Below, one piece after another: positions 35,838 through 48,438 of a stretch of DNA of 64,000 bases (positions within the stretch are counted from its first letter, which is position 1; the number at the start of each line of letters is the position of its first letter). A model generated the notes under the pieces. That model ran no database searches and was not told where the DNA came from. It was given only the letters and a program-made list of their open reading frames with translations. Location of the stretch: contig VHCN01000009.1 in NCBI GenBank assembly GCA_016871675.1, positions 1-64,000 of the forward strand, given 5' to 3'. This DNA is from Verrucomicrobiota bacterium (lineage in GTDB: Bacteria; Verrucomicrobiota; Verrucomicrobiia; Limisphaerales; VHCN01). The translations under genes and the position numbers were made by a program.

Positions 35838-36446
35838 ATGACGCACGCGCAAACGTATTTCGAGCAGGTCCGGCAGATCGCAGCCGCGTTGGACGCCGGA
35901 CTCATCGAGACGCTCGCGCTCGAACTTGCCGCGCTCCGCGAGCGCGGCGGGCGGCTCTTCCTCCTCGGCGTCGGCGGTAGCGCGGCGAATTGCAGCCACG
36001 CGGTGAATGATTTCCGCAAGCTCGGGGGCATCGAGGCCTACAGCCCGTGCGACAATGTGGCCGAGCTGACCGCGCGCACGAACGACGAGGGCTGGCCCAC
36101 CGTCTTCGAAGGCTGGCTCAAGGTCAGCCGCGCCGGCGAACGCGACGCCATCCTGATCTTCTCCGTCGGCGGCGGCGACGCGGCGCGCAACGTCAGCCCC
36201 AACCTCGTCCGCGCCGTGGACGAGGCGAAGCGGCGCGGCATGAAAGTCTTCGGCATCGTCGGCCGCGACGGCGGCTACACGAAGAAGGCGGGCGACGTGG
36301 TTGTGGTCGTGCCGACGGTGGACGCGAACGCGATCACGCCGCACGCGGAAGCGTTCCAAGCCGTGATCTGGCATTGCTTGGTCACGCACCCGGCCGTGCT
36401 CATGCAGGCGAACAAATGGGAAGGGCTGGAGGCAAAGAAGCCCTGA
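35838..36446 (+). CDS. SIS-domain sugar isomerase, GmhA-like but divergent
   Basis: This 202-residue protein has the SIS fold (LFLLGVGGSAANCSHAVNDF at about residue 40, then IFSVGGGDAARNVSPNLVRA). It resembles GmhA, which converts sedoheptulose 7-phosphate into D-glycero-D-manno-heptose 7-phosphate. The catalytic pattern is only partly kept: the GmhA glutamate and the final histidine positions differ (HAEAFQAVIWHCLV instead of QEIHIKVIHIL). A different ketose phosphate may be the substrate. It is the first gene of the sugar block, 3 bases before the GmhB-like gene. I would not call it gmhA without testing. Confidence 0.75.
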   Translation: MTHAQTYFEQVRQIAAALDAGLIETLALELAALRERGGRLFLLGVGGSAANCSHAVNDFRKLGGIEAYSPCDNVAELTARTNDEGWPTVFEGWLKVSRAGERDAILIFSVGGGDAARNVSPNLVRAVDEAKRRGMKVFGIVGRDGGYTKKAGDVVVVVPTVDANAITPHAEAFQAVIWHCLVTHPAVLMQANKWEGLEAKKP

Positions 36447-36449
36447 GCG

Positions 36450-36971
36450 ATGCGCGCCGTCTTCCTCGACCGTGACGGCGTGCTGACGCGGTCGGAGACG
36501 CGCGGCGGCAAACCCTTCGCGCCGCGCCGGCTGGAGGATTTGGAACTGCTGCCCGGCGTGATCGAGGCGACGCGCGAGCTGAAGGCGGCGGGCTGGCGGC
36601 TGGTCGTGGTGACAAACCAGCCCGACGTGGCGACCGGGAAACTCGACCGCGCCGTGCTCGATGCCATGCACGAGCGCCTGCGCCGCGAACTGCCGCTCGA
36701 CGACATCCGCGTCTGCCGTCATGTGGACGCCGACGCGTGCGCGTGCCGCAAGCCCAAGCCCGGCCTGCTGCTCGACGCCGCGCGCGAGCTGGGCTTGTCG
36801 CCCGCGGCGTCGTTCATGGTGGGCGACCGCTGGCGGGACGTGTCGGCGGGCAAGGCCGCCGGGTGTCGGACGATCTTTGTGGACTGCGGCTACGCCGAGG
36901 CGCTGCGCGACGCGCCGGATTTCACCGTCAGGAATTTACCTGAGGCCGTGCGGATTATCCTCGGCCAGTGA
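36450..36971 (+). CDS. HAD-family GmhB-like sugar bisphosphate phosphatase
   Basis: This 173-residue HAD-IIIA enzyme resembles D-glycero-D-manno-heptose 1,7-bisphosphate 7-phosphatase. The catalytic motif is FLDRDG (D7 nucleophile, D9), motif II is VVTNQ, and the zinc loop has C89, H91, C97 and C99 before RKPKPG, with MVGDRWRDVSAGKAAG as motif IV. All catalytic and zinc residues are present. It starts 3 bases after the SIS gene. It would remove the 7-phosphate after the kinase step and before nucleotidyl transfer. Confidence 0.9.
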   Translation: MRAVFLDRDGVLTRSETRGGKPFAPRRLEDLELLPGVIEATRELKAAGWRLVVVTNQPDVATGKLDRAVLDAMHERLRRELPLDDIRVCRHVDADACACRKPKPGLLLDAARELGLSPAASFMVGDRWRDVSAGKAAGCRTIFVDCGYAEALRDAPDFTVRNLPEAVRIILGQ

Positions 36972-36999: not shown

Positions 37000-37725
37000 A
37001 TGAAGCAAACCAGCGAACTCAAAGTGAAGGTCTTCGCCGACGGCGCGGACCTCAAAGGCATTGCGACCCTGGCGGCGAACCCGCTCATCAAGGGCTTCAC
37101 CACCAACCCCACGCTCATGCGCAAGGCCGGCGTGGCCGACTACAAGGCCTTCTCGCACGAGGTGCTCAAGATCATCGGCGGCCGGCCGGTGTCCTTCGAG
37201 GTGTTCTCGGACGATTTTGACGAGATGGAGCAGCAGGCGCGAGAGATTGCGTCGTGGGGCGCGAATGTCTATGTGAAGATCCCGGTGACGAACACGAAGC
37301 GCGAGTTTGCCGGGCCGCTCATCCGCCGCCTCGCGCAAGCCGGCGTGCAGCTCAACGTCACCGCGCTGATGACCAACGACCAGGTGCGCGACGTGGTCGC
37401 TTGCCTCTCGCCGGCCGTCGCCAGCTATGTCTCGGTCTTTGCCGGGCGCGTGGCGGACACGGGCCGCGACCCGGTGCCGCTGATGGCCGAGGCGGTGCGG
37501 CTGCTCGCGCCGAATCCGAAGGCCGAACTCATCTGGGCCAGCCCGCGCGAGCTGCTGAACATCTTCCACGCGGACAGCATCGGCTGCCACGTCATCACCG
37601 TGACGCACGACATTCTCGGGAAGCTGAACCTCGTGGGCAAGGACCTCGACGGCTATTCGCTCGACACCGTGAGGATGTTCTACAACGACGCGCAGGCGGC
37701 GGGCTTCCGCATCGTGACCGGCTGA
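37000..37725 (+). CDS. Transaldolase-family protein
   Basis: This 241-residue enzyme belongs to the short (TalC/MipB) transaldolase group. The active-site Lys is K93 in ANVYVKIPVTNTKREF, TTNPTLMRKAG carries the early motif, and LNVTALMTNDQ follows. It transfers a dihydroxyacetone unit between sugar phosphates, so it could help make sedoheptulose 7-phosphate for the enzymes next to it. A true transaldolase and a fructose-6-phosphate aldolase cannot be separated by sequence. The ATG at 37000 fits the family N-terminus; the frame extends upstream without purpose. Confidence 0.85.
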   Translation: MKQTSELKVKVFADGADLKGIATLAANPLIKGFTTNPTLMRKAGVADYKAFSHEVLKIIGGRPVSFEVFSDDFDEMEQQAREIASWGANVYVKIPVTNTKREFAGPLIRRLAQAGVQLNVTALMTNDQVRDVVACLSPAVASYVSVFAGRVADTGRDPVPLMAEAVRLLAPNPKAELIWASPRELLNIFHADSIGCHVITVTHDILGKLNLVGKDLDGYSLDTVRMFYNDAQAAGFRIVTG

Positions 37726-37784: not shown

Positions 37785-38789
37785 GTGAAACGTGTTCTGG
37801 TCACCGGCGGCGCCGGCTACAAAGGTTGCATCCTTGTCCCCAAGCTCCTCGCCATGGGCTGCGAGGTGGCCGTCTATGATTTGATGCTCTTCGGCTCGGC
37901 GGGCTTGACGCCCCATCCCAAACTCACGGTCATCGAGGGAGACATCCGCGACACGAAGAAATACGCCGGCGCGCTGCGCGGCTGCCACGCCGTCATCCAC
38001 ATGGCGTGCATTTCGAACGACCCGAGCTTCGACCTCGACCCCTCGTTGAGCCGCACGATGAATTACGAGTGCTTCGAGCCGTTGATGCAGTCCACGGCCG
38101 CGGCCGGCACGGTCGAACGTTTCATCAACGTCTCCTCCAGCTCGGTCTATGGCGTGAGCGATTCGCCCGAAGTCACCGAGGAGCACCCCTTGGTCCCCCT
38201 CACGGACTACAACAAATACAAGGGCCTCTGCGAACCCATCGCCTTCAAGTATCAGTCGCCGCAGATGACCGTGGTGACGTTCCGCCCGGCGACGGTCTGC
38301 GGCTACTCGCCCCGCATGCGTTTCGACCTCACGGTGAACATCCTCACCAACCACGCCTGCCACAAGGGCGTCATCACCGTCTTCGGCGGCGACCAGCAGC
38401 GGCCCAACATCCACATCGAGGACGTGACGGACCTCTACGCCGAGGCGCTCACGATGCCCAAGGAAAAGCTCGCCGGGCAGACCTTCAACGCGGGCTACCA
38501 GAACCAGACCGTCAACGAACTGGCCGGGATCACCAAGAAGATCGTCGAGGCGGAGTTCCCCGAGCGCCCGCCCGTCCGCATCGAACGCACCTCGACCAAC
38601 GATCCGCGCTCCTATCGCATCACCTCCCGCAAGATCGAGCAGGTGCTCGGCTGGCGGCCCAAGCGCACCATCGAGGACGCCGTGCGCGACCTGTGCCGCG
38701 CCTTCAAGGCCGGCAAGTTCCCCGGCAACACGCTGACAGACGAGTCCTTCATCAACGTGAAGAGCGTCAAAAAGCTCGGGTTGAAATGA
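37785..38789 (+). CDS. NAD-dependent epimerase/dehydratase (extended SDR)
   Basis: This 334-residue enzyme starts at a GTG (37785). VLVTGGAGYKGCILVPKLL is the glycine-rich NAD site (GxxGxxG, G8-G14 region). SSSSVYG and YNKYKGL give the Ser and YxxxK catalytic residues. It acts on an NDP-sugar; the exact reaction (4-epimerase, 4,6-dehydratase, 4-reductase) cannot be read. Its stop overlaps the next SDR gene by 4 bases (ATGA), so the pair is coupled. Confidence 0.88.
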   Translation: MKRVLVTGGAGYKGCILVPKLLAMGCEVAVYDLMLFGSAGLTPHPKLTVIEGDIRDTKKYAGALRGCHAVIHMACISNDPSFDLDPSLSRTMNYECFEPLMQSTAAAGTVERFINVSSSSVYGVSDSPEVTEEHPLVPLTDYNKYKGLCEPIAFKYQSPQMTVVTFRPATVCGYSPRMRFDLTVNILTNHACHKGVITVFGGDQQRPNIHIEDVTDLYAEALTMPKEKLAGQTFNAGYQNQTVNELAGITKKIVEAEFPERPPVRIERTSTNDPRSYRITSRKIEQVLGWRPKRTIEDAVRDLCRAFKAGKFPGNTLTDESFINVKSVKKLGLK

Positions 38790-39790
38790 GCGCCAAACCC
38801 CTCGCCGTCGTCACCGGAGGCGCCGGCTTCATCGGCAGCCACATGGTGGACCTGCTCCTCGCCGAGGGCCACCGCGTCCACGTCATGGACAACCTCGTCG
38901 GCGGCCGGCTCGAAAACCTTCAGCACCACAAGGGCAACCCCGACCTCGTCGTCGAGGTGCGCGACATCCGCGAACTGGCGGCGGACGACCGGCTCTTCGC
39001 CGGCGCGAGCTATGTCATTCACTTCGGCGGCATCGGCGACATCGTGCCGTCCATCGAGCGGCCTTTGGATTACCTCAGCACGAACGTCATGGGCACCGTG
39101 AAGGTGCTCGAGTGCGCGCGGCATGCCGGCGTGCGGAAGTTCGTCTATGCCGCGTCCTCCTCCTGCTACGGCCTGGCCGCCGTGCCCACGCGCGAGGACG
39201 CGCCCATCGCGTGCGAGCATCCCTACGCGTTGAGCAAATACATGGGCGAGGAGGCCGTGCTCCACTGGAGCCGCGCCTACAAGCTGCCGGTCAACTCCAT
39301 CCGCATCTTCAACGCCTACGGCACGCGCTCCAAAACTTCCGGCGCTTACGGCGCGGTCTTCGGCGTCTTCCTCGCGCAGAAGCTCGCAGGCAAGCCCTTC
39401 ACGGTCGTCGGCGACGGCACACAGCGGCGCGATTTCCTCTACGTGACCGACGTGGCGCGCGCCTTCTACCTCGCGGCGAAGACGGGTTTGGTGAACCAAA
39501 TCTGGAATCTCGGCGCGGGCAACCCGCAGCCGGTGAACCGCCTCGTGGAACTGCTCGGCGGGCCGGTGATCCACCTGCCCAAGCGCCCCGGCGAGCCGGA
39601 CTGCACCTGGGCCGACACGGCAAAAATCCAGCGCGACCTCGGATGGCGGCAGCTCGTGCCCTTCGAGCAGGGCGTGGCGAACCTGCTGGCAAACATCGAG
39701 TATTGGCGGCAGGCGCCGGTGTGGGACCAGGCCTCCATCGCGCAGGCGACCAAGACGTGGTTCGCCTTCCTCGGCGGCGGGAAGAACTAA
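38786..39790 (+). CDS. NAD-dependent epimerase/dehydratase (extended SDR)
   Basis: This 334-residue protein has VVTGGAGFIGSHMVDLLL (NAD site), SSSCYG and YALSKYMGEEAV (YxxxK). GTQRRDFLYVTDVARAF is typical for UDP-glucose 4-epimerase-like and GDP-mannose-type enzymes. GGPVIHLPKRPGEPDCTWAD near the end matches the C-terminal NDP-sugar part. It starts in the stop of the previous gene (ATGA). A 77-base gap then separates it from the kinase-nucleotidyltransferase gene. Confidence 0.88.
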   Translation: MSAKPLAVVTGGAGFIGSHMVDLLLAEGHRVHVMDNLVGGRLENLQHHKGNPDLVVEVRDIRELAADDRLFAGASYVIHFGGIGDIVPSIERPLDYLSTNVMGTVKVLECARHAGVRKFVYAASSSCYGLAAVPTREDAPIACEHPYALSKYMGEEAVLHWSRAYKLPVNSIRIFNAYGTRSKTSGAYGAVFGVFLAQKLAGKPFTVVGDGTQRRDFLYVTDVARAFYLAAKTGLVNQIWNLGAGNPQPVNRLVELLGGPVIHLPKRPGEPDCTWADTAKIQRDLGWRQLVPFEQGVANLLANIEYWRQAPVWDQASIAQATKTWFAFLGGGKN

Positions 39791-39867: not shown

Positions 39868-41418
39868 ATGAGTGCCGCAGACAAGCACGCCGACTATCGG
39901 CGGAAGATCATGACGCGCGAGCAACTCCGCGCCGCCATTGGCCCGCGCCCGCGCCCGCACAGCGTCATCATGTGCCACGGCACCTTTGACCTCGTGCATC
40001 CCGGCCACATCCGCCACCTGATGTATGCCAGGAGCAAGGCGGACCGGCTCATCGCCAGCCTCACCAGCGACGCCCACATCAACAAGGCCAACTTCCGCCC
40101 GTTCGTCCCGCAGGACCTCCGCGCGATGAACCTCGCCGCCCTCGAGTGCGTGGACTACGTGATCGTGGACGAGAACGCCACGCCCATCGAGAACCTGAAG
40201 TTCATCCAGCCCGACTACTTCGCGAAGGGCTACGAGTATTCCGCCGAGGGCGTCCACCCGAAGACAAAGGAGGAGATCGCCGCGCTCGACAGCTACGGCG
40301 GCGAAGTGGTCTTCACCCCCGGCGACCTGATCATGTCCTCGTCGGCGATCATTGACATGACGCCGCCGAACCTCGCGGTGGACAAGCTCGATGCGCTGCT
40401 CCAGTCCGAAGGCCTCGGGTTCGCCGACCTCCGCGCCGCGCTCGACAAGATGCGTGGCGTGCGCGTCCACGTCCTCGGCGACACCATCGTGGACGGCTAC
40501 ACCTACTGCACGCTCATCGGCGGCACGGCCAAGACGCCGACCTTCAGCGTGAAGTATGAGCGGCAGGAGGACTTCTCCGGCGGCGCGGCGGTCGTCGCCA
40601 AGCACCTGCGCTCCGCCGGCGCGGAGGTTGTCTTCTCCACCGTGCTGGGTAACGACGCCTTGAAGGACTTCGTGATCAAGGACCTCACCGACGCGGGCAT
40701 CAAAGTCGAGGCCGTCATTGATCCGCAGCGGCCCACCACGCACAAGAACGCCTTCATCACGAACGGCTACCGGATGCTCAAGGTGGACACGCTCGACAAC
40801 CGGCCCATCTCCGAAAAAATTCTCGGCAAGCTTCAGGCCCAACTTGCGGCGCATCCCGTGGACGTCGCGGTCTTCAGCGATTTCCGCCACGGCCTCTTCA
40901 ACAAGCACACCATCCCGACGCTCACCGCCGCCGTGCCCGCGGGCGTGATGCGCGTCGCCGACAGCCAGGTTGCCAACCGATGGGGCAATATTTTGGAGTT
41001 CCAGGACTTCGACCTCATCACGCCCAACGAGCGCGAGGCGCGTTTCGCCCTCGGCGACCAGGACTCCACCGTGCGCCCGCTCGCGCTCGACCTCTATCGA
41101 AAGGCGCGCTGCCGGATGCTCATCCTTAAACTCGGCGAGCGCGGCATCATCACCTACCGCTCGCCCAGCCCGGAGGTGCGCGCGTTTTTCACCGTGGACA
41201 GCTTCGCCGGCCACGTCGTGGACGCCGTCGGCGCGGGCGACGCGTTGCTCGCCTACGCCACGCTCTCGCTCAAGGCCACCGGCTCGAACGTCATCGCGAG
41301 CATCCTCGGCTCCCTCGCCGCCGCCGTCGCCTGCGAGCGCGACGGCAACAATCCGGTCGCCCCCGCCGACGTGCTCAAGAAACTCGCGGAGGTCGAGAAA
41401 CGCGCGCGCTTCGAATGA
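39868..41418 (+). CDS. Bifunctional nucleotidyltransferase-PfkB kinase, HldE-like with reversed domain order
   Basis: This 516-residue fusion has, from N to C, a cytidylyltransferase-type domain (residues 32-165, MCHGTFDLVHPGH with H44-PGH47, and SSSAII near 160) and a PfkB sugar kinase domain (residues 180-510). The kinase shows GGAAVVAKHL, FITNGYRMLKVDTLD and GAGD at 455-458, D458 being the catalytic base. HldE (RfaE) has the kinase first; the order is swapped here. The likely reactions are phosphorylation of a heptose 7-phosphate at C1 and later nucleotidyl transfer. It overlaps the next gene by 4 bases. Confidence 0.88.
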   Translation: MSAADKHADYRRKIMTREQLRAAIGPRPRPHSVIMCHGTFDLVHPGHIRHLMYARSKADRLIASLTSDAHINKANFRPFVPQDLRAMNLAALECVDYVIVDENATPIENLKFIQPDYFAKGYEYSAEGVHPKTKEEIAALDSYGGEVVFTPGDLIMSSSAIIDMTPPNLAVDKLDALLQSEGLGFADLRAALDKMRGVRVHVLGDTIVDGYTYCTLIGGTAKTPTFSVKYERQEDFSGGAAVVAKHLRSAGAEVVFSTVLGNDALKDFVIKDLTDAGIKVEAVIDPQRPTTHKNAFITNGYRMLKVDTLDNRPISEKILGKLQAQLAAHPVDVAVFSDFRHGLFNKHTIPTLTAAVPAGVMRVADSQVANRWGNILEFQDFDLITPNEREARFALGDQDSTVRPLALDLYRKARCRMLILKLGERGIITYRSPSPEVRAFFTVDSFAGHVVDAVGAGDALLAYATLSLKATGSNVIASILGSLAAAVACERDGNNPVAPADVLKKLAEVEKRARFE

Positions 41419-42329
41419 GAGTCGCCATCATCGGCCACGGGGTGCAGGGGCGCAAACGCCGCGCCATCGCGGGCGATCGAGTCACCGCCGTCGTGGACCC
41501 CGCCGCCGCGGGTGTGGACTTCAAGGCCATCCAGGAAGTCCCGCTCGACCGCTACGACGCCGCGTGTGTGTGCGTGCCGGACGATGCGAAGGTTCCGATT
41601 CTCCGGCATCTGGTTTCGAACGGGAAACATGTGCTCGTGGAGAAACCGCTGCTTGCCCCGGCCAGCGAGATTCAGGAGCTGATCGCGCGCGCGCGGCGCA
41701 CGAAGGCGGCGGCTTACACCGCCTACAACCACCGATTCGAGCCGCACATTGCCCGGCTCAAGCAGGTGCTCGACTCCGGCGTGCTCGGCCGCGTGTATCT
41801 CACGCGCGTCTTCTACGGCAACGGCACCGCGCGCGACGTGCGCAACTCGCCGTGGCGCGACCACGGCGCGGGCGTGTTGCCGGACCTCGGCTCGCACATG
41901 CTCGACCTGGCGCACTTTCTCACCGGCCCGCGCGATGACTTCGGCCGGGTTTGGAGTGCGAACCGCTTTGAGAACCAATCGCCGGATCACGTCACTTTCG
42001 GCTTCGACGGCCCCGCCGTGTGGGAGATGGAAGCCACACTGCTCTCGTGGCGGAATACCTTCACGCTCGACGTCTTCGCCGAGCGCGGCAGCGCGCACAT
42101 CCACTGCCTCTGCAAGTGGGGCCCGAGCACGCTCACCGTCCGCACGCGGGTCTTGCCCAGCGGCCGGCCCGGGGAAACAGTCGAAACCCTCGAACAGGCC
42201 GACCCGACGTGGAAGCTGGAATACGACCACTTCCTCGCGCTCTGCCGGACCGGCGGGACGAACTGGGAAAACGACCTCTGGATCGGCGCTCAACTCGACG
42301 CGCTCACACGCCAACTCCCGCCACCATGA
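41415..42329 (+). CDS. Gfo/Idh/MocA-family oxidoreductase
   Basis: This 304-residue NAD(P)-dependent enzyme begins MRVAIIGHGVQGRKRRA, the dinucleotide loop, and carries GKHVLVEKPLL with the family's EKP lysine. YTAYNHRFEPHIARLKQVLD fits the substrate-binding domain. It oxidises or reduces a sugar hydroxyl or ketone, typically at C3 in NDP-sugar pathways. Start and stop overlap neighbours by 4 bases (ATGA on both sides), so its supply is tied to theirs. The glycine loop is G-H-G-x-x-G. Confidence 0.88.
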   Translation: MRVAIIGHGVQGRKRRAIAGDRVTAVVDPAAAGVDFKAIQEVPLDRYDAACVCVPDDAKVPILRHLVSNGKHVLVEKPLLAPASEIQELIARARRTKAAAYTAYNHRFEPHIARLKQVLDSGVLGRVYLTRVFYGNGTARDVRNSPWRDHGAGVLPDLGSHMLDLAHFLTGPRDDFGRVWSANRFENQSPDHVTFGFDGPAVWEMEATLLSWRNTFTLDVFAERGSAHIHCLCKWGPSTLTVRTRVLPSGRPGETVETLEQADPTWKLEYDHFLALCRTGGTNWENDLWIGAQLDALTRQLPPP

Positions 42330-43585
42330 TCGGCTTCGCCGGCCTCTCGCATCTCGGCCTCGTCTATGGCCTCGCCTCGGCGGCGAAGGGCTTCGAGGTC
42401 GTCGGTTTCGACCGCGACCCGGCGCTGTGTGCGCGGTTGTCGCGGGGCGATTTTCCTGTCTCCGAGCCGGGACTTGACGACCTGTTTTCGGCGCATCGGG
42501 CGAGGATGAACGTCACCACCGACCCCGCCGACCTCTCCAAGTGCCGCGTCGTGTTCTACTCGCTCGACGTGCCGACCGACGCGGCGAACCGCAGCGACCT
42601 TGCGCCGCTCCGGCAGTTGCTGGAACACACCGCCCCGCACCTCGCGCCGGACGCGACCGCTGTGATTCTCAGCCAGGTGCCGCCCGGTTTCACACGCGCG
42701 CTCCCGCGCCTCGGCGGCGCGTTGCACTACCAGGTCGAGACACTCGTCTTCGGCAACGCCGTCGAGCGCGCGCTCCGGCCCGAGCGCTGCATCGTCGGCT
42801 GCGCCGACCCGCGCGCGCCGCTGCCCGTGGACTATGCGAAATGGCTCGGCGCGTTCGGCTGTCCGGTCCTGCCGATGCGCTACGAGAGTGCGGAGTTGGC
42901 AAAGATCGCGATCAACTTCTTCCTCGTGTCCAGTGTCTCGACCACGAACACGCTTGCCGAACTTTGCGAGCGCATCGGCGCGGACTGGAACGAGATCGTC
43001 CCCGCGTTGCGACTCGACGCGCGCATCGGCCCCAAGGCCTACCTCGCGCCCGGCCTCGGCCTCGCCGGCGGCAACCTTGAGCGCGACCTCGTCACCGTGC
43101 AGGCGCTCGCCGCGCAGCACGGCACGGAGGCGGGACTCGTCAGCGCATGGCAGCGCAACAGCGCCTACCGCCGCGATTGGGTGCTGCGGCTCGTCCACCA
43201 ACGCGTGCTGTCGCGAACGCCCGGGGCCCGGCTCGCGTTGTGGGGGCTGGCCTACAAACAGAACACCCGCTCGACCAGAAACTCCCCGGCCGTCGCGCTC
43301 GCCGAGGCGCTCGCGCCATTCGTAAAGACCGCCTTCGACCCGCAGGTCAAGTCGCTCGGCGCGCCGGTGGCCAACCTCTCCTTCGCGGCCTCCGCGCTAG
43401 AAGCCTGCAGCGGCGCGGATGCGTTGCTCGTGGTGACGCCGTGGCCGGAGTTCAGCAAAGTGCCGCCCGCTGAAGTGAAGTCAGCCCTGCGCGGCAACGT
43501 GGTCGTTGACCCGTTCGCCGTGCTCGATTCCTCCGCCTGCGCCACCGCGGGCTTGGAACACCACCGCCTCGGCGTGCGAAACTGA
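42326..43585 (+). CDS. UDP-glucose/GDP-mannose dehydrogenase family, catalytic Cys replaced by Asn
   Basis: This 419-residue protein has all three domains of the family: N-terminal NAD part (GFAGLSHLGLVYGLASAAKG), middle, and C-terminal part (ALWGLAYKQNTRSTRNSPAV). The structural lysine and asparagine (AELAKIAINFFL) are kept. The motif that holds the catalytic Cys of UGDH, PGxGxGGSCFPKD, reads PGLGLAGGNLERD here, so N250 stands where the Cys should be. A normal two-step oxidation to a uronic acid through a thioester is therefore not expected. The protein may stop at the aldehyde, be an alcohol dehydrogenase or be inactive. The ATG overlaps the previous stop. Confidence 0.85.
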   Translation: MIGFAGLSHLGLVYGLASAAKGFEVVGFDRDPALCARLSRGDFPVSEPGLDDLFSAHRARMNVTTDPADLSKCRVVFYSLDVPTDAANRSDLAPLRQLLEHTAPHLAPDATAVILSQVPPGFTRALPRLGGALHYQVETLVFGNAVERALRPERCIVGCADPRAPLPVDYAKWLGAFGCPVLPMRYESAELAKIAINFFLVSSVSTTNTLAELCERIGADWNEIVPALRLDARIGPKAYLAPGLGLAGGNLERDLVTVQALAAQHGTEAGLVSAWQRNSAYRRDWVLRLVHQRVLSRTPGARLALWGLAYKQNTRSTRNSPAVALAEALAPFVKTAFDPQVKSLGAPVANLSFAASALEACSGADALLVVTPWPEFSKVPPAEVKSALRGNVVVDPFAVLDSSACATAGLEHHRLGVRN

Positions 43586-43592
43586 TTCAGCC

Positions 43593-44498
43593 ATGCTCAA
43601 ACACCACCACGCCACGCCCACGCCTCCCGCGCGCGTCGTCATCCTCGGCGCGACCGGCTTCATCGCGCGCGATCTCGCGCAGTTCCTCGGCTCGCAGCAG
43701 GTGCCCGTCGAACTTGTCGGCTCCGCGCGGGTGGACCTGCTCCAGCCTGACGCCGTCGAAAAACTCCGCGCCCGGCTGCGCCCCGACGATGCGCTGGTCG
43801 TGACTTCCGCCCTGACGCCCGAGAAGGGCAAGGACGTGCCGACGTTCATGAAAAACCTCACCATGGCTGCGAGCGTGTGCGCCGCGGTCGAGGCCTCGCC
43901 GTGCGCGCACCTGGTCTATCTGAGCTCCGACGCCGTGTTCGAGGATCCGCCGACCCTGCTGAGCGAGCAGGCGCCGCGTGCGGGCATCGGCCTCTACGGC
44001 AAGATGCACGCCGCGCGCGAGGAGATGCTGCACTTCTCCGCAGCCGTGGCGAAGACACCGCTGTGCATCATCCGACCGTGCGCCGTCTATGGCGCGGGCG
44101 ACACGCACAACAGCTACGGACCGAACCGCTTTTTCCGCACGGCGCTCAAGGACCGCAAGGTCCAGCTCTTCGGCAACGGCGAGGAACAGCGCGACCACAT
44201 CCACGTGCGCGACCTCACGCGGCTCATCGGGCTTTGCCTCGCGCGCCGCACGGCGGGCGCGCTCAATGCCGCGACGGGCAGGGCGGTGACTTTCATGGAA
44301 GCCGCGCAGCAAGTCGCGCGGCTCTGCCCCCAGCCGGTTGAAATCATCTGCCAGCCGCGCGCCGCCAATGCCGTCATCACGCACCGCCACTTCGATGTCT
44401 CGCTGCTCCTGCGCGAATTCCCGGACTTCCACTGCCAGGCGCTGGCGGACGGGCTGGCGCAGGTGCATCGGCAATTGACGTCAACTCCGGCCACCTGA
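43593..44498 (+). CDS. Epimerase/dehydratase-family SDR with YxxxH
   Basis: This 301-residue extended SDR has VVILGATGFIARDLAQFL at the start, LVYLSSDAVF around residue 110, and Y135-G-K-M-H139 where the family has YxxxK. The catalytic Lys is thus His. IIRPCAVYGAGDTHNSYGPN and EEQRDHIHVRDLTRLIGL are typical NDP-sugar features. Either it is an atypical active enzyme or a non-catalytic partner of the others. It starts 7 bases after the dehydrogenase gene. Confidence 0.8.
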   Translation: MLKHHHATPTPPARVVILGATGFIARDLAQFLGSQQVPVELVGSARVDLLQPDAVEKLRARLRPDDALVVTSALTPEKGKDVPTFMKNLTMAASVCAAVEASPCAHLVYLSSDAVFEDPPTLLSEQAPRAGIGLYGKMHAAREEMLHFSAAVAKTPLCIIRPCAVYGAGDTHNSYGPNRFFRTALKDRKVQLFGNGEEQRDHIHVRDLTRLIGLCLARRTAGALNAATGRAVTFMEAAQQVARLCPQPVEIICQPRAANAVITHRHFDVSLLLREFPDFHCQALADGLAQVHRQLTSTPAT

Positions 44499-44511: not shown

Positions 44512-44988
44512 ATGTCGCCAACGCCACCAGCGGTTGCGCGCGCGCGCATCAGCGGCGTGGTGCTCCTGCGCGAGGACGGAGCGTCACTGCTCCAGCATCG
44601 CGACGACAAGCCGGGCTTGAGCGCGGCCGGACAATGGGTCTTTCCGGGCGGACACTGCGAACCGGGCGAAACCTGCCGTGACTGCGCGCGACGCGAGTTT
44701 CTTGAGGAGACGGGTTACAACTGCGAAGCGCTGGAGCTCTTGACAGAGTTCGACTACCTGAGCCCCGATACCGGGCGCGAGTTTCGGCTGAGCTTCTGGT
44801 GGGCAAGCTATGACGGCGTGCGACCGGTGCATTGTTTCGAGGGTCAGGAAGTGCGATTCATGACACGCGCCGAGGCCCCGCGGCATCCGATGCCCGATTA
44901 CGTCACCCGCGTCTGGGACCTCGCGCTGGACCAAAAGAAAACTTCACCGGACGGCCAAAGCAGGCTACTTACAACGCCCTCGCGATGA
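44512..44988 (+). CDS. Nudix hydrolase
   Basis: This 158-residue protein has a perfect Nudix box, from G47 (GHCEPGE) through R61-E62 to EETG at 65-68. The rest reads VVLLREDGASLLQHRDDKPG, so it resembles the small Nudix group close to GDP-mannose or NDP-sugar hydrolases and MutT-like proteins. It could clear off-pathway nucleotide sugars or regulate the pool of the block's product; that is inference from neighbours. It lies in the sugar block with 13 bases to the upstream gene. Confidence 0.88.
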   Translation: MSPTPPAVARARISGVVLLREDGASLLQHRDDKPGLSAAGQWVFPGGHCEPGETCRDCARREFLEETGYNCEALELLTEFDYLSPDTGREFRLSFWWASYDGVRPVHCFEGQEVRFMTRAEAPRHPMPDYVTRVWDLALDQKKTSPDGQSRLLTTPSR

Positions 44989-45013: not shown

Positions 45014-46009
45014 ATGGCAAAAACCTACGTCATCCTTGGCGGCGGCGGCTCCTTCGGCGTCCACACGGCGATGTATCTGCTCGCGAACACCGACGCAAAG
45101 AAGGTCATCTCAGTCGGTCGCAACCCCGAGAAGCCCGAGCCGTTTTCGCTCGGCGTGGGCCGCGGCGACTCGCGTTACGCCTACCACCAGATTCACATCA
45201 CCCACGAACAGGACCGGCTCTTCGAGTTGTTCGATGCCGAGAAACCCGAGGTCATCGTGAGCTACGCGGCCCAGGGTGAAGGCGCGGTGTCGTGGAAGAA
45301 GTCGTGGCGGTTTTTCGAGACGAACTGCGTCGCGCTCGCCAAGATGAGCGAGGAACTGATGAAGCGCGACTACATGGAGCGGTTCATTCAGATCGGCACC
45401 AGCGAACTTTACGGCTCGGTGGACTTCGCGGCCAAGGAGACGACGCCGTTGCAGCCCACCAGCCCTTACGCGGCGAGCAAGGCGGCGTTTGACATGTATC
45501 TGATGTCCGTCGCGAACGTGCTGAAGTTCCGCATGAACATCATCCGGCCGTCGAACGCCTACTGCCCCGGCCAGCTCCTGCACCGGGTCATCCCGCGCGC
45601 CGTGCTGTGCGGACTCACGGGCCAGAAGCTCCCGCTCCAAGGGGGCGGCCGCGCAAAGAAATCCTACATTCACGCCCGCGACCTCGCCCGCGCCATCCTG
45701 CTCGTCGCCGAGAAGGCGCCGCCTGGTCGCGTCTACAACGCCGGTCCCCCGCTGCCGATCAGCATCCGCGACCTCGTTGCGAAAGTGGCCGAGGGCTTCC
45801 CGATGCCGTTTGACCAGTTGTGCGCCATCGTGGCCGACCGGCTTGGGCAGGACGGCCAATACTGGCTGGACAGCAGCGCCATCAAGCAGGACGTCGGCTG
45901 GGAGCCGCAGATCAGCCTCGAGGAAGGCATCCAGGAAATGATCGCCTGGGGCCGCAAGTATCTGGACCAGATTCGCGACGTGCCCACCGGCTACATCCTC
46001 CGCACGTAG
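45014..46009 (+). CDS. NAD-dependent epimerase/dehydratase (extended SDR)
   Basis: This 331-residue protein starts MAKTYVILGGGGSFGVHTAM with the glycine-rich NAD loop. The catalytic residues are TSELYG (Thr/Ser) and YAASKAAFDMY (YxxxK). ARDLARAILLVAEKAP and VYNAGPPLPISIRDLV match NDP-sugar epimerases. It has intact catalytic residues, unlike the YxxxH protein upstream, so it may provide that activity. It lies 7 bases before the transketolase gene. Confidence 0.85.
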   Translation: MAKTYVILGGGGSFGVHTAMYLLANTDAKKVISVGRNPEKPEPFSLGVGRGDSRYAYHQIHITHEQDRLFELFDAEKPEVIVSYAAQGEGAVSWKKSWRFFETNCVALAKMSEELMKRDYMERFIQIGTSELYGSVDFAAKETTPLQPTSPYAASKAAFDMYLMSVANVLKFRMNIIRPSNAYCPGQLLHRVIPRAVLCGLTGQKLPLQGGGRAKKSYIHARDLARAILLVAEKAPPGRVYNAGPPLPISIRDLVAKVAEGFPMPFDQLCAIVADRLGQDGQYWLDSSAIKQDVGWEPQISLEEGIQEMIAWGRKYLDQIRDVPTGYILRT

Positions 46010-46016
46010 TCTGACC

Positions 46017-46838
46017 ATGGCCCGACCTCCTTTTGATGCGGACGCGGTGCGCGCACGGTGCAAGCGGTATCGGCGGCGCATCCTCGACATTTCGCAGACG
46101 GTCGGCGCGCTGCACATCGCCCCGTCGTTTTCGTGTCTCGAACTGGTGGCGACCTCCTACTTCGGATTGATGAACCGCACCGGCGACGCGGCCACGGAGG
46201 ACACCTTTGTGCTCTCGAAGGGCCACGGCTCGCCCGCGCAATACGTCGTGCTCGAAGAACTCGGCGTCATCCCGACGGCGTGGCTGGAGAACTTCTGCAA
46301 GCCCGGCTTCCCGCTGGCGACGCATCCGGACTATGGCACGCCAGGCATTTCGGCCTCGACCGGCTCGCTTGGGCACGGCCTCGGCCTCGCCGTCGGCATG
46401 GCTTACGCAGACAAGCTCGATGGCAAGGCGCGCGACATCTTCGTGGTGATGAGCGACGGCGAGTTGCAGGAAGGCTCCGTGTGGGAGGCGCTCATGGTCG
46501 CCCCCTCTTTCGGCATCACGCGGCTCGTGGTGCTGGTGGACTTGAACGACTTCCAATCACTCGGCCAGACCAGCAAGACACTGCCAAACTTCTACCCGAT
46601 GCTGGACAAGCTCCGCGCCTTCGGCTGGGAAGCCGCCGAAGTGGACGGCCACAATCCGCAGGCCATCCACGACGCGGTCAGGGCGCGCAGCGGCACGAGG
46701 CCGTTTGTGTTGCTGGGCCGCACAACAAAGGGCAAAGGCGTGAGCTACATGGAGAACGTGCCCATCTGGCACTACCGCGCGCCCAACGCAGAGGAATACC
46801 GGATTGCCATCAAGGAAGTGGAGGGCTGCGCCTCGTGA
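46017..46838 (+). CDS. Transketolase, N-terminal subunit
   Basis: This 273-residue protein is the thiamine-diphosphate-binding half of a split transketolase. FVLSKGHGSPAQYVVLEELG, GSLGHGLGLAVGMAYADKLD and MSDGELQEGSVWEALMVAPS (thiamine/metal site, the family GDGE replaced by SDGE) and LVVLVDLNDFQSLGQT are visible. It moves two-carbon units between sugar phosphates; it can supply sedoheptulose 7-phosphate or add a two-carbon branch to a keto sugar. Its last bases overlap the C-terminal subunit gene (GTGA). Confidence 0.9.
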   Translation: MARPPFDADAVRARCKRYRRRILDISQTVGALHIAPSFSCLELVATSYFGLMNRTGDAATEDTFVLSKGHGSPAQYVVLEELGVIPTAWLENFCKPGFPLATHPDYGTPGISASTGSLGHGLGLAVGMAYADKLDGKARDIFVVMSDGELQEGSVWEALMVAPSFGITRLVVLVDLNDFQSLGQTSKTLPNFYPMLDKLRAFGWEAAEVDGHNPQAIHDAVRARSGTRPFVLLGRTTKGKGVSYMENVPIWHYRAPNAEEYRIAIKEVEGCAS

Positions 46839-47764
46839 GAAACGCCTTCGCCAACGCCTTCTACGAACTGGCGCGCAACGACCCGCGCATCGTCCTCGTC
46901 GTCGCCGACATCACCGCCGCCGCAGGCGTCGCGTCCTTTCAAAAGGAATCGCCCGAACGCTTCGTCAACGTTGGCGTCGCCGAACAGACGATGATCGGAA
47001 TGTGCGCCGGCCTCGCGTTGCGCGGGAAGATCCCGTTCGCCTACACCATTGCCACGTTTACGATCTACCGGCCGTTCGAGCAGGTGCGCGTGGATTGCTG
47101 CTACCAGAATCTTCCGGTGAAACTCGTCGGCGTCGGCGCCGGCGTGAACTACTCGACCCTCGGCGGAACGCACCACGCGCAGGAGGACGTCGCCGTAATG
47201 AGCGCGATCCCCAACATGACCGTGCTCGCGCCGTGCGACCCGGCCGAATCCGCGCTGTGCACACGGGCGTGTGTCGCGGACATTCCCGGTCCGGTTTACC
47301 TGCGTCTCGGGAAGGCCGGCGAGCCGGACCTCACCGCGGGCGCGCCGGATCCGTTCCGACTCGGCAAGGTTCGATGCATCCGCCCCGGCGCCGACGTTTG
47401 CCTGCTTTCCTACGGACCGATCACAAAGATGGCGCTCGACGTCGCCGCGCGCATCGAGAGCGAGCGCGGGCGAAGCGTCGCCGTCCATTCAATCCACAGC
47501 CTCAAGCCTCTCGACACGGAAGGCATCAAGTCCTTGCTTGCCCGATTCCCCGCGATCGCCGTCATCGAGGAGCACGCGCCCTTCGGCGGCCTCGGTCCGC
47601 AGGTCAAGGCGCTCGCGTGGGACTCGGGCGCACGCTGCACGCTTCGCACGTTCGCGTTGCGGGACGAGTTCATCCACGTCTACGGGTCGCACGGCGACCT
47701 CCTCAAGGCGCACGGACTCGAGACCGGATTGCTGGCCCGCGAGATTGGCGCGCTCGCGAACTGA
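46835..47764 (+). CDS. Transketolase, C-terminal subunit
   Basis: This 309-residue partner starts at GTG 46835, inside the stop of the N-terminal subunit. It has the pyrimidine-binding domain (RFVNVGVAEQTMIGMCAGLA, with the catalytic Glu in AEQ), YTIATFTIYRPFEQVRVD, and the transketolase C-terminal domain (HSIHSLKPLDTEGI; IEEHAPFGGLGPQVKALA). The two subunits would form one heterotetramer. The split form also occurs in archaea and in some polysaccharide and antibiotic clusters. It probably depends on the N-half gene for translation. Confidence 0.9.
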   Translation: MRNAFANAFYELARNDPRIVLVVADITAAAGVASFQKESPERFVNVGVAEQTMIGMCAGLALRGKIPFAYTIATFTIYRPFEQVRVDCCYQNLPVKLVGVGAGVNYSTLGGTHHAQEDVAVMSAIPNMTVLAPCDPAESALCTRACVADIPGPVYLRLGKAGEPDLTAGAPDPFRLGKVRCIRPGADVCLLSYGPITKMALDVAARIESERGRSVAVHSIHSLKPLDTEGIKSLLARFPAIAVIEEHAPFGGLGPQVKALAWDSGARCTLRTFALRDEFIHVYGSHGDLLKAHGLETGLLAREIGALAN

Positions 47765-47775
47765 CCTCACCCGCC

Positions 47776-48438
47776 ATGGCCGAGCTGGACTTCATCTCCA
47801 CCGTTCACCAGGCGACCGCGCGCAATTACCTCCAGCGCGTCGTCGAGCACGACAAGGCCGAATGCGCCGCGGTGGCGAAGAAATTCGGGCAGGATTACTT
47901 CGACGGCGACCGCAAGTATGGCTACGGCGGTTTCAAGTATGACGGCCGATGGATTCCATTCGCCCGGCAGTTGGTCGCACATTACGGGCTCAAGCCGGGC
48001 GACCGCGTGCTCGACATCGGCTGCGGCAAGGGCTTTCTCGTGCATGACTTCATGGAAGTCTGCCCCGGCATCGATGTGTCCGGGGTGGACATCTCGGAAT
48101 ACGCCGTCGCCAACGGGATGCCCGAAGTCCGCGACCGCCTCAAGGTCGGCAACGCCGTATCGCTGCCGTATCCGGACAAGAGCTTTGACCTCGTCGTGGC
48201 CATCAACACGCTGCACAACCTGCGGATCTACGACCTCGAGAAGGCGCTGCGCGAGATCGAGCGCGTCGGCCGGGGCGGCAAATACATCGTGAACGACTCC
48301 TACCGCACGGAGCGCGAGAAGGTCAACCTGCTGTATTGGCAGATCACCTGCGAGTCCTTCTACACGCCGCCGGAGTGGGAGTGGATCTTCGCCCGGTGCG
48401 GCTACACCGGTGACTACGGGTTCATCTTCTTCGAATGA
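47776..48438 (+). CDS. SAM-dependent methyltransferase (class I)
   Basis: This 220-residue enzyme has GDRVLDIGCGKGFLVHDFME (motif I, GxGxG-type), VDISEYAVANGM, and DLVVAINTLHNLRIYDLEKA (motif IV). RVGRGGKYIVNDSYRTEREK follows. It methylates a small molecule, likely a sugar in this block, since the following genes are also methyltransferases. Its stop overlaps the start of the next (ATGA). Confidence 0.88.
   Translation: MAELDFISTVHQATARNYLQRVVEHDKAECAAVAKKFGQDYFDGDRKYGYGGFKYDGRWIPFARQLVAHYGLKPGDRVLDIGCGKGFLVHDFMEVCPGIDVSGVDISEYAVANGMPEVRDRLKVGNAVSLPYPDKSFDLVVAINTLHNLRIYDLEKALREIERVGRGGKYIVNDSYRTEREKVNLLYWQITCESFYTPPEWEWIFARCGYTGDYGFIFFE

Follow-up and report, generated by a model that had tools for sequence, protein, structure and literature searches.

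A Cys-free homologue of UDP-glucose dehydrogenase in a heptose-like gene cassette of a Verrucomicrobiota bacterium: a putative two-electron NDP-sugar dehydrogenase

The window analysed here is the whole stretch of 64,000 nucleotides, and the genes and residues of interest are collected in Table 1. At the fold level, the protein named Ugd* is a member of the UDP-glucose/GDP-mannose dehydrogenase superfamily. All three Pfam domains (PF03721, PF00984 and PF03720) score above cut-off, TIGR03026 is matched with 203 bits (cut-off 190), and the top matches in sequence and fold searches are structures of the UDP-glucose dehydrogenase (UGDH) family only. The AlphaFold2 model of Ugd* has a mean pLDDT of 88; the loop 236–246, directly before the active-site motif, falls below 50.

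Table 1. Genes of the cassette and selected residues of Ugd*. N-type and T-type denote Cys-free homologues with Asn or Thr, respectively, at the position of the catalytic Cys.
Feature	Position	Strand	Remarks
SIS-domain isomerase, GmhA-like	35838..36446	+	closest solved relatives are phosphoheptose isomerases
HAD-IIIA phosphatase, GmhB-like	36450..36971	+	family match
Transaldolase, likely supply of sedoheptulose-7-P	37000..37725	+	TIGR02134, 344 bits (cut-off 282)
SDR1, extended SDR	37785..38789	+	nearest solved structure 6VO6/6VO8
SDR2, extended SDR, UDP-glucose 4-epimerase-like, YxxxK kept	38786..39790	+	
HldE-like fusion, swapped order: nucleotidyltransferase (N), PfkB-type heptose-7-P kinase-like (C)	39868..41418	+	
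Gfo/Idh/MocA oxidoreductase	41415..42329	+	in every N- and T-type locus
Ugd* (N-type), Cys-free UGDH-fold nucleotide-sugar dehydrogenase	42326..43585	+	419 aa, complete ORF
His9 (of GLSHLG) replacing Tyr10	42350..42352	+	invariant in N- and T-types
Gln117 replacing Thr118	42674..42676	+	invariant in N- and T-types
Lys193 and Asn197, retained catalytic pair of the active-site helix	42902..42916	+	residue comparison
Asn250 codon AAC replacing catalytic Cys	43073..43075	+	sequence, alignments, residue table
Asp254, general base, retained (S. pyogenes UGDH: Asp264)	43085..43087	+	residue comparison
SDR3, RmlD-like SDR, YxxxK Tyr/Lys replaced	43593..44498	+	(Y/H)GxMH in most
Nudix hydrolase	44512..44988	+	in about one third of loci
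SDR4, GDP-mannose 4,6-dehydratase-like (TSELYG)	45014..46009	+	optional extension
Transketolase, N-terminal half	46017..46838	+	optional extension
Transketolase, C-terminal half	46835..47764	+	optional extension
Class I methyltransferase MT1	47776..48438	+	optional extension

Codon 250 of Ugd* lies in the context CTC GCC GGC GGC AAC CTT GAG CGC GAC. When the protein is aligned to solved UGDHs, by HMM or pairwise, its Asn falls on the catalytic Cys without gaps (GPGYGGSCFPKD against GLGLAGGNLERD of 4a7p, and likewise for 3gg2 and 2y0e). The sequence-only reading, which had set N250 of GGNLERD against the thioester-forming Cys and had described the Lys and Asn of the active-site helix as kept, is borne out on both points: the two residues lie in AELAKIAIN, and the Asp of the motif is retained as well.

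Scanning the genome contigs of bacteria and archaea yielded 19 close relatives of Ugd* (38–68% identity, L005–L023), and additional searches provided three further N-type loci (L028, L072 and L073), giving 23 distinct loci with the window included; L013/L074 and L017/L071 match in every figure and each pair was counted as one genome. The motif GGNLERD, as G-(A/S)-G-G-N-L-E-R-D or equivalent, is present in all 23 loci, down to 38% identity. Because orthologues in many independent assemblies share it, a local sequencing error is excluded, and a decayed gene was ruled out on the same invariance. The loss of the Cys is thus conserved among the homologues: the sequence-only reading had left room for related loci that keep it, and none of the 23 does, while 29 of 29 Cys-type controls have Cys. 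Judged by record titles, which may err for binned genomes, the N-type occurs in Verrucomicrobiota, Planctomycetota, Acidobacteriota and Pseudomonadota, the last including SAR11 (one Pelagibacteraceae single cell). Its distribution is patchy: among 388 sampled genomes of the phylum, two carry the motif; 10 of 236 genomes of the class hold an N or a T type, five each.

The T-type came to light in a profile search among class relatives, in which two proteins (L031 and L032) scored above all Cys-type UGDHs; both read GGTLARD, with Thr for the Cys. The class holds three more T-type proteins. A plasmid of Lawsonia intracellularis (plasmid 3, WP_011527333.1), one of Rhizobium jaguaris and one of Rhizobium sp. 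CB3060 encode a single T-type protein each, and the SAR11 contig L022 carries an incomplete copy (GGTLERD). The T-type set comprised eight full loci (L055, L056, L068–L070 and L075–L077) and a cut ninth, with the motif GGT-LxRD. In a maximum likelihood tree the N clade was supported at 100/100 and the T clade at 100/99; together they were separated from 29 Cys-type sequences at 94/93, at a node that was not starred. A single loss of the Cys, ancestral to both types, is likely, and not proven because long branches were flagged by the tree tool. Phyla are intermixed in the tree, which points to horizontal transfer. Spread of the N-type by phages or plasmids was considered and rejected: its motif had no match in viral_contigs, and no identity above 34% was found among the phage or plasmid records listed. 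Neither the clade-wide spread of the Cys loss nor the Thr-type sister group, with its parallel heptose cassette, had figured in the sequence-only reading.

Eighteen residues are invariant in 229 NDP-sugar dehydrogenases, the catalytic Cys260 (S. pyogenes numbering, used below) among them (PMC4794789). Residues were compared in 21 full N-types and 8 T-types (29 Cys-free sequences) and in 29 Cys-type controls. The position of Cys260 is Asn in 21 of 21 N-types, Thr in 8 of 8 T-types and Cys in every control. Glu141, Glu201, Lys204, Asn208, Asn219, Gly258 and Asp264 are found in each N- and T-type sequence, Lys204, Asn208, Asp264 and Glu141 being invariant across all three sets, and Gly7, Gly12, Lys320 and Ser117 are present in all or most of the Cys-free proteins. 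Replaced in both Cys-free types are Gly9 (by Ser, Thr or Trp), Thr118, Gly257 and Cys260; the Thr118 position is Gln, the Tyr10 position His, and the Ser preceding the Cys has become Gly, each in 29 of 29 Cys-free sequences. Tyr10 catalyses thioester hydrolysis (PMC4794789), and Thr118 has been given a role in thioester hydrolysis or with the catalytic water (PMC4794789, PMC3184952). Thr83, Pro140 and Asn287 are lost in the N-type only. The adenosine ribose of NAD is bound by an Asp at the position of residue 29 of Ugd* (42410–42412); among the 21 full N-types, eight have His there and one has Gly. Because of these losses, cofactor binding or use may differ within the N-type clade.

Since the first-step residues are kept and the Cys, Tyr10 and Thr118 positions are replaced, the alcohol-oxidising first half of the mechanism appears intact and the thioester half gone. 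Human UGDH with the C276A substitution fails to finish the reaction from UDP-glucose (PMC3184952). On this combined basis four-electron oxidation to a uronic acid by Ugd* should fail, in agreement with the prediction of the sequence-only reading. It is very unlikely that all four electrons are removed through another nucleophile or an aldehyde hydrate. Such a route could draw on the retained Asp and Glu and on C73 and C179, which are invariant in the N-type, and the C276A enzyme does oxidise added aldehyde (PMC3184952); however, Tyr10 and Thr118 are also replaced, and in the T-type these two Cys are not conserved, for which reason C73 and C179 were rejected as substitute nucleophiles. A catalytically dead scaffold or regulatory subunit, as might be supposed from the missing signature residue and from the adjoining SDR3, itself devoid of the catalytic Tyr/Lys, is most improbable, because the site Lys, Asn, Asp and Glu are invariant in a clade diverged to 38% identity, and GGNLERD is itself invariant, for which a dead enzyme would have no need.

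The gene order SIS–HAD–transaldolase–SDR1–SDR2–(nucleotidyltransferase + kinase)–Gfo/Idh–Ugd*–SDR3 is conserved among N-type loci, and the cassettes often continue with Nudix, SDR4, split transketolase and methyltransferase genes. T-type loci have the order SDR–Ugd(T)–classical SDR–Gfo/Idh–GHMP kinase–nucleotidyltransferase–SIS–(HAD)–transaldolase, partly rearranged in Lawsonia; L069 and L070 showed no HAD gene. Besides the window, the Gfo gene is present in 22 of 22 N-type loci and the HldE-like fusion in 21 of 22; isomerase, transaldolase, GHMP kinase, nucleotidyltransferase and Gfo genes are found in 8 of 8 T-type loci. None of isomerase, phosphatase, transaldolase, either kinase or Gfo occurs in 23 Cys-type UGDH neighbourhoods. 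Isomerase and phosphatase genes were not found in the available flanking sequence of eight N-type loci, several of which are on short contigs. The swapped domain order of the HldE-like fusion is conserved in N-type loci. SDR3 and its orthologues (L005–L028) mostly read LHGxMH, with His for the catalytic Lys in all aligned copies. About 9 of 23 N-type loci, SAR11 included, have the split transketolase (46017–47764) next to genes for sugar nucleotides; it may serve the lengthening or shortening of the sugar.

The nearest named families of the cassette enzymes are phosphoheptose isomerase, heptose-bisphosphate phosphatase and HldE in the window, and HddA and MurU/HddC in the T-type, all at sub-equivalog level. 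The best match of the T-type kinase is HddA (167 bits against an equivalog cut-off of 600), and its nucleotidyltransferase is MurU/HddC-like, so that two heptose-type activation modules are split by subfamily, HldE-like with N and HddA/HddC-like with T. In the window, the GmhA-like isomerase scores 51 against an NCBIfam equivalog cut-off of 209 bits, and the two HldE domains 92 against 182 and 133 against 345. Because the heptose enzymes stay below these cut-offs, a different C7 sugar or a C6 sugar is possible as the product of the cassette. On the Pelagibacteraceae single-cell contig (L022, 1–21176) an N-type and a T-type cassette adjoin and have one SIS, one transaldolase and one HAD gene in common. 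This is what two routes diverging from a common heptose 7-phosphate would lead one to expect, one with HldE-like and the other with HddA-like activation. The nearest solved structure to SDR1 is 6VO6/6VO8 (8e-40; next best 2e-22), which we take to be Cj1427, the GDP-heptose C4-dehydrogenase of Campylobacter. Distant second copies are present in the same genome for the nucleotidyltransferase (G000:C12:52951-53424), the kinase (G000:C48:10151-11092) and the SIS isomerase (G000:C19:9838-10221); they perhaps represent the ordinary LPS heptose pathway.

We propose that Ugd* is an NAD-dependent two-electron NDP-heptose dehydrogenase with C6 as the favoured site, a proposal that in this full form we hold to be evenly poised. 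Its parts differ in strength: two-electron activity is probable, and an NDP-C7 sugar as substrate somewhat more so. Given both, a C6 ketone would be the reasonably probable product, and the three taken jointly can be put forward tentatively. A C7 sugar phosphate would be made by the transaldolase and the GmhA-like isomerase, after which the HldE-like fusion and the GmhB-like phosphatase would phosphorylate C1, remove the C7 phosphate and add the nucleotide. C6 is most likely the oxidation site from the geometry of the fold, which holds the sugar C6 beside the nicotinamide. In a hexose this carbon is a primary alcohol, and the acid is reached by the thiohemiacetal/thioester route on the Cys; in a heptose it is a secondary alcohol bearing C7H2OH, so that a single hydride transfer would end at a ketone, with no aldehyde to trap and no need for the Cys. 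The Asn (or Thr), with Gly for the preceding Ser, could leave room for the C7 hydroxymethyl group and maybe hydrogen-bond to it. The 6-ketone would be passed to the neighbouring SDR and Gfo/Idh enzymes. Hydroxymethyl ketones are the kind of donor used by transketolases, and where a transketolase is present the 6-ketone may, speculatively, act as its donor.

The sequence-only reading had offered an aldehyde or a ketone for the neighbouring enzymes. The ketone, now placed at C6, is the more likely of the two because the cassette is heptose-like and SDR1 is nearest to 6VO6 (presumably Cj1427); the aldehyde has become the less likely half. Two-electron oxidation of a primary alcohol (hexose C6 or heptose C7) to an aldehyde used by neighbours is unlikely. 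It would be compatible with the kept first-step and lost thioester residues, and one accepted scheme of UGDH chemistry has an aldehyde as its first intermediate (PMC3184952), but free aldehydes are reactive, a Cys-free UGDH (C276A) is able to oxidise added aldehyde (PMC3184952), and a heptose-like cassette would bring a secondary alcohol to the reaction centre of the fold. Rather unlikely, too, is a transient oxidation in which the cofactor is retained and the carbinol epimerised (e.g. C6 from D-glycero to L-glycero, cf. HldD, which has another fold), or an enzyme whose main activity is that of a ketone reductase. There are L-glycero heptoses whose origin is not explained (PMC10680097), and the nucleotide site has odd residues: Gly9 is replaced by Ser, Thr or Trp, and 9 of 21 N-types have lost Asp29, mostly to His and rarely to Gly. 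NAD is, however, normally exchanged freely by UGDH-fold enzymes, and a separate classical SDR with YxxxK in the T-type cassettes could be the reductase.

Ugd* shares with known UGDHs (Ugd, TIGR03026; 4a7p UgdG, 2y0c-e BceC, 2q3e human) the fold, the three domains, the NAD and NDP-sugar domains and the first-step Lys, Asn, Asp and Glu; it differs in the absent catalytic Cys, in His for Tyr10, Gln for Thr118 and the replaced Gly9 and Gly257, and in its cassette. In the WbpA–WbpB/WlbA pairs, a UDP-GlcNAc 6-dehydrogenase is followed by a Gfo/Idh 3-dehydrogenase, so that a UGDH-fold and a Gfo/Idh/MocA enzyme likewise act in one pathway; unlike the window, WbpA-type enzymes keep the Cys, make a uronic acid and are without a heptose module. 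From the HldE/GmhB/HldD pathway to ADP-heptose for LPS, the window has relatives of the kinase, nucleotidyltransferase and 7-phosphatase, but with swapped fusion order, scores far below equivalog cut-offs and distant extra copies elsewhere in the genome. The GDP-heptose pathway of Campylobacter jejuni resembles the T-type in its kinase, near HddA, and the window in SDR1, near 6VO6 (our assignment to Cj1427); the window cassette has the HldE-like fusion instead of HddA/HddC. That pathway runs through GmhA, HddA, GmhB and HddC to the C4-dehydrogenase Cj1427 (PMC10680097), and is alike in its logic, with an isomerase, a 1-kinase, a 7-phosphatase and a nucleotidyltransferase ahead of ketone chemistry on the NDP-heptose; the passages of PMC10680097 consulted describe no UGDH-fold or Gfo/Idh step. 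Among the open-access papers searched, none was found to describe a UGDH clade without the Cys or a cassette of this kind.

Overall, Ugd* is a variant form of a fold already known, set in a new cassette, and should not be filed as a UDP-glucose 6-dehydrogenase, because it lacks the catalytic Cys by which four-electron dehydrogenases are recognised. TIGR03026 would still label the Cys-free branch as nucleotide sugar dehydrogenase, and uronic acids would therefore be predicted where their formation is unlikely. Two related cassettes for a putative heptose-derived sugar are marked by the branch and reach from a SAR11 single cell through verrucomicrobial, planctomycete and acidobacterial genomes to plasmids of Lawsonia and Rhizobium. 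In a broader and still tentative form, an NDP-heptose 6-dehydrogenase may have arisen once by loss of the Cys in the UGDH family and then diverged into Asn and Thr types for beta- and alpha-activated heptoses, respectively. It would then be the central reaction in a pair of cassettes that have been transferred widely and that, in SAR11, Verrucomicrobiota, Lawsonia and rhizobia, make 6-keto-derived sugars, perhaps extended by transketolase. If true, NDP-heptose 6-dehydrogenase would be a previously undescribed enzyme activity.
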